Of a stretch of 64,000 bases of DNA, positions 926-32,111 are shown piece by piece. The stretch comes from Lachnospiraceae bacterium (lineage in GTDB: Bacteria; Bacillota; Clostridia; Lachnospirales; Lachnospiraceae). The notes under the pieces are model-generated. The model saw only the letters and a program-made list of their open reading frames with translations, did no database searches and was not told the origin of the DNA. The DNA is taken from assembly GCA_014804365.1 (NCBI GenBank), contig JAAUZX010000026.1, positions 41,730-105,729 of the forward strand, given 5' to 3'. A program made the position numbers and the translations under genes. Positions within the stretch are counted from its first letter, which is position 1; each line of letters opens with the position of its first letter.

Positions 926-1082
926 GTAATTATTCAGAAGGTGCTTCCGCGAGGTGTTTTTTGTGAGTGAAGCGTAAGCGGAAGTCACAGAAAACCCGAG
1001 GCAGACTTGTGCGAAATTATGCAGAATGCATAATTTCTGTGCATCTTCGTAACTGTGAAGAACAGGGTTCTGAACAGTTACT
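926..1082. mobile_element. Probable longer MITE-like member of the GTAAC...GTTAC element family
   Basis: Begins GTAATTATTCAG (926-937), ends CTGAACAGTTAC (to 1081), i.e. inverted termini; contains the 33-bp hairpin at 1049-1081 and a perfect hairpin GAAATTATGCA-gaa-TGCATAATTTC (1013-1037); imperfect flanking repeat AATATTTT / GATATTTT. Confidence 0.55.
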
Positions 1083-26310: not shown

Positions 26311-26317
26311 AGAAATT

Positions 26318-26371
26318 GTAACTATTCAGCGCAGGTCGAAGCATTTACTGCTGAGACCGTAAGAATATGAT
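26318..26371. mobile_element. Candidate degenerate member of the GTAAC...GTTAC element family
   Basis: Starts GTAACTATTCAG (26318-26329); the 54-bp segment is flanked by direct repeat TAGAGAAATT (26308-26317 and 26372-26381). Confidence 0.4.
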
Positions 26372-29469: not shown

Positions 29470-29520
29470 TTTACGGAAGCTTCCGGAAAACGTATATGGA
29501 TTATAAACTTGTTAATGCGC

Positions 29521-29541
29521 TGTCTCAACAAAGTTGAGACA
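29521..29541. repeat. Perfect 9-bp-stem hairpin, AAA loop
   Basis: TGTCTCAAC-aaa-GTTGAGACA just upstream of the GT4 start; not T-run terminated. Confidence 0.7.
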
Positions 29542-29568
29542 AGAGCGTGCGCAGAAATGAGGATTAAT

Positions 29569-30657
29569 ATGGGCAGAATATTGGTTTTGACAAATTCTTC
29601 CGGCGGGTTGTATGATTTCCGAAATGAATTTATGCAGGCGATGTTAGCGGAGCATGAGGTCTATGTCAGTATGCCTGATGATGTGAAAGAGAAGGAGCTG
29701 GCGGCGGAGGGATGCCGGATCATCAAGACGTCGATCAACCGCAGGGGAATTAATCCACTGGAAGATTTGAAGTTGTACCGCGCTTACGGCAGACTGATGA
29801 GAGAACTTAAGCCTGATCTGGTGGTTACTTATACGATTAAGCCGAATATCTACGGCGGTTTTGCGGCGGCGCGGCGTAAGATTCTGTATATTGCCACGAT
29901 CACAGGTCTGGGCGGCGCTTTTGACAGGACGGGGATTCTCCTGAAGGTGATCGTTGCCATGTATCGAACGGGGCTGAGACGGGCCGCATGTGTCTTTTTT
30001 CAGAATGAAGAGAACAGAGGTATATTCCAGAGACTCGGTATCACGGCGAAGAAGACACGCATGGTCATGGGATCGGGCGTAAGTCTGGAAAGGCACCGGT
30101 ATGAGCCGTATCCTGACAGCGGGGAGACGCATTTTCTCTTTGTAGGCAGGGTCATGAAAGAACGTGGTATACTGGAATATATCGAGGCGGCGAAGGAGTT
30201 ACATAGTGATAATGTCTTCTTTGATATTATGGGATACTGCGACGAGGATTATCAGGACATGCTGGATGAGTTGGAGAAGGAAGGCATTTTGCGTCAGATC
30301 GGATTCCACACGGAAGTACATCCGTATCTGGCGGCGGCCAGTGCGATTGTGGTGGCATCCTTCCATGAGGGAATGTCCAATGCGCTGATCGAAGGCGCGG
30401 CCACGGGAAGGCCGGTGATCGCTTCCAATATCAGTGGCTGTCTTGAGGCGTTCGAGGACGGACGCACCGGATTCGGATTTACGCCCGGACATGCAGAGGA
30501 ACTGATTGGCGCCATGCGGAAATTTTTGGATTTGTCTACAGATGAGCGTGCTGAGATGGGACGCAGGGGCAGAGAGAAGATGGAGCGGGAATTTGACCGA
30601 AGGCTGGTGACAGGAGCCTATATGGATGAAGTAAGACTACTGCTGGGACAGAAGTAA
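29569..30657 (+). CDS. GT4 family glycosyltransferase (PglA-like)
   Basis: GRILVLTNSSGGLYDFRNEF...LFVGRVMKERGILEYIEAAKEL...SFHEGMSNALIEGAATGRPVIASNISGCLEAFEDG; the ORF opens at 29509 and ATG at 29569 has a gagg RBS. Confidence 0.92.
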   Translation: MGRILVLTNSSGGLYDFRNEFMQAMLAEHEVYVSMPDDVKEKELAAEGCRIIKTSINRRGINPLEDLKLYRAYGRLMRELKPDLVVTYTIKPNIYGGFAAARRKILYIATITGLGGAFDRTGILLKVIVAMYRTGLRRAACVFFQNEENRGIFQRLGITAKKTRMVMGSGVSLERHRYEPYPDSGETHFLFVGRVMKERGILEYIEAAKELHSDNVFFDIMGYCDEDYQDMLDELEKEGILRQIGFHTEVHPYLAAASAIVVASFHEGMSNALIEGAATGRPVIASNISGCLEAFEDGRTGFGFTPGHAEELIGAMRKFLDLSTDERAEMGRRGREKMEREFDRRLVTGAYMDEVRLLLGQK

Positions 30658-30664
30658 CGTGATC

Positions 30665-30691
30665 GTAACCGTGAAGGTACTGAACAGTTAC
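30665..30691. mobile_element. Short palindromic element with 8-bp target-site-like duplication
   Basis: GTAACCGTGAAGGTACTGAACAGTTAC flanked by ACGTGATC at 30657-30664 and ACGTGATC at 30692-30699. Confidence 0.7.
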
Positions 30692-30794
30692 ACGTGATCA
30701 TAATATTACAAGCGATACATCTTTATGTCTGTACTGCCTGAACAGAGGTCGGATAAAGCAGCGCAGAAGGGTATACGGAAAATGGAGGATAAAA

Positions 30795-32111
30795 ATGGAC
30801 TTATATGAGAAAATTGTAAAAGGCGAGGAAAAATTATCTCTCGTGGGACTGGGTTATGTGGGTATGCCGATTGCCGTTGCTTTTGCTAAGAAAATTAATG
30901 TGGTGGGATTTGATCTGAACGAGAAGAAGATCGAACTGTATAAGAGCGGCATCGATCCGACCAACGAGGTGGGAGATGAGGTGATCAGAAACACTAAGGT
31001 AGACTTTACTGCAGATCCTGCGAAGCTGCGAGAAGCGAAGTTTCATATCGTAGCCGTTCCCACGCCGGTGAATGATGACCATACGCCGGATTTAACGCCG
31101 GTGGAGGGAGCCAGCCGTATCCTGGGACAGAATCTGACGAAAGGATCGATCGTGGTATTTGAATCTACCGTGTACCCGGGTGTTACGGAGGATATCTGTG
31201 TGCCGATTCTGGAGAAAGAGTCGGGTTTAAAGTGTGGTGTGGATTTCAAGATCGGTTATTCGCCGGAACGTATCAATCCCGGCGATAAAGTTCATAGATT
31301 AGAGACTATCACAAAGATTGTGTCCGGCATGGACGAGGAGACGTTGGATATTGTTGCCAAGATATATGAGCTGGTTGTAGAGGTGGGAGTGTACCGCGCG
31401 GAGTCCATTAAGGTGGCGGAGGCTGCAAAGGTCATCGAGAACAGCCAGAGAGATATCAATATCGCGTTCATGAATGAGCTCTCTATGATTTTTCATAAGA
31501 TGGATATCGACACGCGGGCGGTGTTGGAGGCTGCCGGGACGAAGTGGAACTTCCTGAAATTTATGCCCGGACTCGTGGGAGGACACTGCATCGGCGTAGA
31601 TCCCTATTATCTGACTTATAAGGCGGAAGAGCTGGGCTATCACTCGCAGATCATTCTGTCCGGGCGCCGCATCAATGATGATATGGGGAAATATGTGGCG
31701 GAGAGCCTTGTGAAGAATCTGATCAAAGCGGATATCCCGGTGAAACATGCCCGTGTGGCGATTCTGGGCTTTACCTTCAAGGAGAACTGCCCGGATACGA
31801 GAAATACGAAAGTGATCGATATTTATAAGGAGCTGGGAGAGTACGGGATAGATCCCATGGTGGTGGACCCTGCAGCAGATGCAGAGGAAGCGAAGCGGTT
31901 GTACGGAATTACATTCCGTTCGATGGATGAGGTCAAAGACATGGATGCGGTAATTATCGCGGTAGCTCATAATGACTTCTTAAAGCTGGACAGAGAACGG
32001 ATCGATTCTTTCTACGCAGCGTCACATAAACGGAAGGTTTTATCGGACATTAAGGGTGTATTGAACAGAAAAGAGTATCTGACAGAGGATTATCTGTATT
32101 GGAGACTGTAA
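30795..32111 (+). CDS. tviB: Nucleotide sugar dehydrogenase (UDP-HexNAc 6-dehydrogenase, TviB/WbpO-like)
   Basis: LSLVGLGYVGMPIAVAFAKKINVVGFDLNEKKIELYKSGIDPTNEVGDE...GVDFKIGYSPERINPGDK...LVGGHCIGVDPYYLTYKAEELGY. Confidence 0.93.
   Translation: MDLYEKIVKGEEKLSLVGLGYVGMPIAVAFAKKINVVGFDLNEKKIELYKSGIDPTNEVGDEVIRNTKVDFTADPAKLREAKFHIVAVPTPVNDDHTPDLTPVEGASRILGQNLTKGSIVVFESTVYPGVTEDICVPILEKESGLKCGVDFKIGYSPERINPGDKVHRLETITKIVSGMDEETLDIVAKIYELVVEVGVYRAESIKVAEAAKVIENSQRDINIAFMNELSMIFHKMDIDTRAVLEAAGTKWNFLKFMPGLVGGHCIGVDPYYLTYKAEELGYHSQIILSGRRINDDMGKYVAESLVKNLIKADIPVKHARVAILGFTFKENCPDTRNTKVIDIYKELGEYGIDPMVVDPAADAEEAKRLYGITFRSMDEVKDMDAVIIAVAHNDFLKLDRERIDSFYAASHKRKVLSDIKGVLNRKEYLTEDYLYWRL

Follow-up and report, generated by a model that had tools for sequence, protein, structure and literature searches.

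A 27-bp hairpin between 8-bp target duplications in a Lachnospiraceae genome: a probable past insertion of a non-autonomous IS66-type element

In the genomes compared here, insertion sequences of the single-gene IS66 type (ISBst12-like) are 1.7-2.0 kb long, encode a DDE transposase, and have the ends GTAACTRTTCAG and CTGAAYAGTTAC together with an 8-bp target duplication. Duplications of 8 bp are also given by other DDE families. Short intergenic palindromes present in many copies are likewise known from the REP/REPIN systems, which depend on another class of transposase, HUH (RAYT), and REP elements moved by RAYT would not be expected to leave 8-bp target duplications. Another kind of short unit, the solo LTR, is left inside the original target duplication when recombination between direct repeats removes the interior of an element. 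Prokaryotic MITEs are non-coding, multi-copy elements with terminal inverted repeats and target duplications, which are likely moved in trans by a related insertion sequence (PMC10969869). They are generally shorter than 300 bp (PMC3189936), MITEPsy1 being 100 bp. The text of the 2024 review of prokaryotic MITEs (PMC10969869) does not mention IS66, and no IS66-derived MITE family was found in the part of the openly accessible literature that we searched; papers matched by a text search for the end sequence had unrelated titles.

The locus studied here lies in a 64-kb stretch of DNA from a Lachnospiraceae bacterium, which is referred to as the window. Positions 30657-30699 of the window read ACGTGATC-GTAACCGTGAAGGTACTGAACAGTTAC-ACGTGATC, that is, a 27-bp element (30665-30691, plus strand) between perfect 8-bp repeats (30657-30664 and 30692-30699, neither assigned to a strand). 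Upstream is a GT4-type glycosyltransferase gene (29509-30657, plus strand), and downstream a nucleotide-sugar dehydrogenase gene (30795-32111, plus strand). The TAA stop codon of the GT4 gene occupies 30655-30657, so that stop and left repeat overlap by one base, the last of the former being the first of the latter; as the TAA ends at 30657, the stop remained intact after the insertion. The initial annotation, which had described an element with a perfect 8-bp ACGTGATC duplication at the GT4 stop, is thus exact in the window sequence. The element consists of two 12-bp ends and a 3-bp centre: the left end, GTAACCGTGAAG (30665-30676, plus strand), has the family consensus GTAACTGTGAAG, and the right end, CTGAACAGTTAC (30680-30691, plus strand), corresponds to that of IS66-family elements, CTGAAYAGTTAC. 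The terminal inverted repeats GTAACCGTGAAG and CTGAACAGTTAC are imperfect, pairing at 8 of 12 positions in this copy and at 9 of 12 in the consensus, while those of the longer forms described below (GTAACTGTTCAG and CTGAACAGTTAC) pair at 12 of 12. The ends and the 8-bp target duplication are held in common with IS66; however, the element is non-coding, and the short form's left end, GTAACTGTGAAG, departs from that of IS66 at 3 of 12 positions, so that the end match is partial. With a length of 27 bp and without a gene for a DDE_Tnp_IS66 transposase, it is not itself an IS66 insertion sequence, and it is also much smaller than a MITE of the usual size.

We searched 77 genomes of the genus for the flanks of this copy. 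In two species (G042 and G027), both genes are present with 90% DNA identity over the query, and the junction carries a single GCGTGATC or ATGTGATC. The junction is shorter in both by the element plus one repeat (35 bp), with one further base missing elsewhere in G027. In G045 and G043, larger deletions are found at the junction and the element is absent. An empty allele with two ACGTGATC copies, the outcome that would contradict a duplication upon insertion, was looked for in the relatives and not found; G042 and G027 have one target copy. The other short copy of the window, a 33-bp element at 461-493 with the duplications GAACAATC at 453-460 and 494-501 (453-501 in all, plus strand), also has an empty site with one GAACAATC in G042 and G043.

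Further copies were gathered by pattern searches and by reading of genome fragments. The 27-mer pattern with up to three mismatches gave one match in the window (none in 100 shuffles) and 8 in the 3.83-Mb genome, compared to 0 for the reversed control. The corresponding numbers were 41 and 0 for the 33-bp form (up to three mismatches), and 131 and 10 for the end GTAACTGTTCAG (up to one mismatch). The fragments read contain 77 candidate end pairs. Perfect 8-bp repeats flank 17 of them, where permutations gave 0.30 on average and 4 at most; 32 have repeats matching at 7 or more of 8 positions (17 perfect and 15 near-perfect), against a mean of 0.75. The 77 pairs, all of which entered the permutation test, include nested ones, in which a short module lies within a long copy, and this is why many of them score low. 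Perfect duplications occur at element sizes of 27, 33, 49-50, 55-58, 132, 156-157 and 183 bp. One of these sizes, the 183-bp form (L003 1501-1683; also L333 in G043), is a 132-bp form with 51 additional bp inside it, which contain a palindrome of their own, CTAAGCGCCAGTGGCGCTTGG. The target sites of the family are AT-rich and tend to begin with GA, and the copies avoid genes, with 3 of 36 lying inside open reading frames where about 29 were expected. The family is short and non-coding (27 bp here, 27-183 bp in the window's genome), with terminal inverted repeats, a fixed 8-bp target duplication with empty sites, and many dispersed copies, as is characteristic of MITEs.

It had been argued beforehand that two copies with different 8-bp duplications make chance unlikely, and the shuffles, the reversed control and the permutations agree with this. 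A mobile insertion with an 8-bp target duplication is likewise backed by the family statistics and by the empty orthologous sites of both copies. What found no support is the suggestion, drawn from the shorter centre of the 27-bp copy, that constraint is confined to the ends. The 27-bp and 33-bp units form two subfamilies in which the centre is conserved as well, in the case of the 27-bp unit across 14 genera. The variants at the inner bases of their ends (..TACC and ..AACCC) have counterparts in the ends of IS66, where ..TTCAGAACCC and ..TTCAGTACC both occur, a split that is also the one between the 33-bp and the 27-bp forms.

Could the hairpin instead be a functional RNA or a terminator, its flanking repeats being due to chance? 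The family consensus forms do fold as RNA (z of -3.0 for the 27-mer and -3.8 for the 33-mer). However, the hairpin at 30665-30691 is imperfect, with a T-to-C change in the left arm relative to the family; its DNA fold is no better than that of shuffles (z of 0.18) and its plus-strand RNA fold is weak (z of -0.75). Promoter and terminator scans of the element gave no match and no T-run terminator, and no Rfam match was found. Together with the empty sites in relatives and duplications far in excess of chance, this led us to reject this reading as very improbable. The 27-bp copy is better described as paired inverted transposon ends than as a structured RNA. Most likely, it is a near-neutral remnant with little effect beyond the 35 bp that were added between the two genes.

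A REP/REPIN-like palindrome moved by a RAYT transposase would equally be short, intergenic and present in many copies. However, 8-bp duplications are the rule in this family, whereas REP/REPIN elements are characterized by the lack of a target duplication of fixed length, and the ends match those of IS66. This reading, too, was rejected on account of the duplications and the IS66-like ends, and we consider it highly unlikely.

A possible source of movement is found in the same genome, which contains a decayed IS66 transposase gene. Immediately after the gene lies GGGGGTTCTGAATAGTTAC, which is nearly identical to the right end of the 33-bp form; the IS66 left end is absent at this locus (L045). 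Directly upstream of the decayed gene, at L045 1-1562, there are frames that by eye resemble a broken ISL3-type transposase. Relatives of the decayed gene in public genomes, mostly in Lachnospiraceae records, are single-gene elements of 1.7-2.0 kb with the left end GTAACTRTTCAG and, mostly, the right end CTGAAYAGTTAC; 17 of 27 such elements have perfect 8-bp duplications, compared to 0.63 in permutations. The protein is assigned to IS66 by Pfam PF03050 and NCBIfam NF033517, above cut-off in both cases. An intact transposase, of 481 aa, is encoded at L088 2721-4166. An intact IS66 gene of the relevant subgroup was not found in the window's genome, G027, G042, G063 or G070, all of which are incomplete; the window's genome is 85% complete, and a copy may have been missed. 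Across the genus, G068 alone yielded such an intact gene, while G000, G043 and G045 have decayed pieces. In several species, the family thus seems to outlive its transposase source, subject to assembly gaps, and the movement of the element may predate the decay of the IS66 gene.

As the ends and the 8-bp duplication match those of IS66 and a decayed IS66 gene is present in the genome, we read the 27-bp copy as a past insertion of a non-autonomous IS66-type element (a MITE), with a probability of about 0.9. The insertion and its target, the family, and the ends and duplication length in common with IS66 are demonstrated; that an IS66 transposase does the moving is what the sequences suggest. 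An IS66-family transposase, supplied in trans, would recognise the 12-bp ends and join them to the target ACGTGATC directly downstream of the GT4 gene, the 8-bp duplication arising as the staggered ends are repaired.

The short units turned out to be parts of longer elements. A long form starts with an IS66-like left end, continues through a variable interior and an internal GTAACTGTGAAG, and finishes with the right end; its GTAACTGTGAAG is an internal repeat of the left end. The internal GTAACTGTGAAG, the centre and the right end of the long forms make up the 27-bp or the 33-bp unit, so that a short unit is a module of a long element, starting with a direct repeat of its left end. Two further members lie in the window. 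One, a long member of about 156 bp (GTAATTATTCAG ... GTAACTGTGAAGAACAGGGTTCTGAACAGTTAC, 926-1081, plus strand), sits 430 bp downstream of the 33-bp copy at 461-493; its right 33 bp (1049-1081) equal the short form, and its flanks, AATATTTT and GATATTTT, match only if one extra T is allowed at the right end. A GTG-started open reading frame (967-2907) was called across this member, and the true start of the gene is therefore probably downstream of 1081. The other (26317-26367, the end being approximate, plus strand) is a member of the 132-bp class with its right part missing up to the duplication; it has the left end GTAACTATTCAG, about 50 bp of interior, and GAGAAATT on both sides. Right-side truncations of this kind were also seen at the site L006 in G042 and G045.

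To follow the short copies, the flanks of ten of them were searched in six relatives and the alleles were read. Four sites hold one and the same insertion, with shared duplications, at different lengths: 55-58 bp in some species, and 33 bp or, in one case, 21 bp in others. Site L026 is empty in three species and holds 55 bp in two and 33 bp in two (G000 included). L074 is empty in two, with 58 bp in G070 and 33 bp in three; all of its filled alleles carry the same unusual derived right end, CTGAACAATTAC, and two different short products are found. L039 has a single target in G043, 55 bp in G070 and 33 bp in five, and L012 has 55 bp in G043, 33 bp in four and 21 bp in G070. Single insertions were therefore shortened in place, and more than once. 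The breakpoints lie in short direct repeats (GTAACTGT, AGAA and TGTTC), as would be expected of replication slippage, and the direction was presumably from long to short, since the reverse would need repeated gain of the same specific interior. Solo LTRs offer an analogy only, in that an interior is lost between direct repeats and a short unit is kept inside the target duplication; they are a different class of element, and here the repeats span only some 8 bp and slippage best accounts for the loss. As hairpin-only copies can arise by such deletion, seen at four other sites, the two short copies of the window, which had been taken for independent insertions, are both real but are on their own insufficient proof of two transpositions of the short form. 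The architecture of the long forms, deletion after insertion and the likely role of IS66 as mobiliser go beyond the initial annotation, which is supported as to a mobile insertion with a target duplication but not as to constraint on the ends only.

For the 27-bp copy itself, no long allele was seen at ACGTGATC, so that shrinkage and entry at 27 bp both remain, at about even odds. On the one hand, the copy may be an in-place remnant of an element of about 132 bp, a solo hairpin with its target duplication intact, the interior of which would have been lost by slippage between the left end and the internal direct repeat GTAACTGTGAAG, much as in solo LTRs; we give this history an even chance. It is consistent with the shrinkage from 55/58 bp to 33 bp at four sites of the sister subfamily, with the two different short products that share a derived right end at L074, and with the 27-bp unit being the right-hand module of the 132-, 142-, 183- and 233-bp forms. 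A further in-place change within the 132 class is the difference at site L005, where G043 has the 183-bp form and G000 the 132-bp form. However, six sites of the 132 class showed empty alleles, right-side truncations and this one pair of 183 and 132 bp, but no change from 132 to 27 bp. Furthermore, relatives show only empty or deleted alleles at 30657-30699, and the direct repeats of the 132 class share fewer bases and lie further apart than those of the 55-bp class.

On the other hand, the 27-bp unit may itself have been mobilised, with the internal repeat GTAACTGTGAAG acting as left end. With at most one mismatch allowed, the 27-bp unit turns up in 15 of the 397 genomes of the taxonomic family, in 14 genera, with up to 69 copies per genome. 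Most of the copies read there are the right ends of forms of about 96-236 bp, many with perfect or near-perfect duplications. In four genomes (G025, G058, G103 and G297), every match is a solo short copy whose duplication agrees at 8/8 or 7/8 positions. The identical GTAACC variant recurs in G021, where it occupies another target and is flanked by a perfect duplication, TAAAATTA. In the high-copy genomes G177, G300, G325 and G468, no solo copy was present in the 12 loci read, which suggests that decay does not simply yield solo copies in a fixed proportion. Against this, the low-copy/high-copy contrast was noticed post hoc from hand-tallied counts, so that a Fisher test on them is given no weight; 27 bp leaves very little room for two transposase-bound ends; and the demonstrated shrinkage in place accounts for solo copies unaided. 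We therefore place direct insertion of the 27-bp copy at a little under even odds. The broader proposal, that the 27-bp unit is mobile at its own size and spreads between species with the internal GTAACTGTGAAG as left end, is tentative, with the odds leaning against it. If it is true, the unit would be among the smallest target-duplicating transposable units. The 27-mer has no exact match in IMG/VR, and hence there is no sign of phage carriage.

One of the high-copy genomes, G468 (genus g102; loci L290, L299 and L306), has 69 matches to the 27-bp unit. Those read belong to forms of 142 and 233 bp, whose right ends they make up and whose duplications are perfect. They are likely to represent a recent burst, and this genome is a good place to seek an active transposase.

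MITEs are a known kind of element; what sets this family apart is the very small size and the visible conversion from long to short forms. A MITE family of Clostridia-like genomes thereby gains a likely transposase, IS66, and a natural series in which one site may be empty or carry a long, a short or a still shorter allele, so that the decay of a MITE to solo hairpins becomes directly visible. Short intergenic palindromes in such genomes, readily mistaken for terminators or regulatory RNAs, are in many cases the ends of transposons, and a sharp question is made testable: what is the smallest DNA that a DDE transposase still moves?
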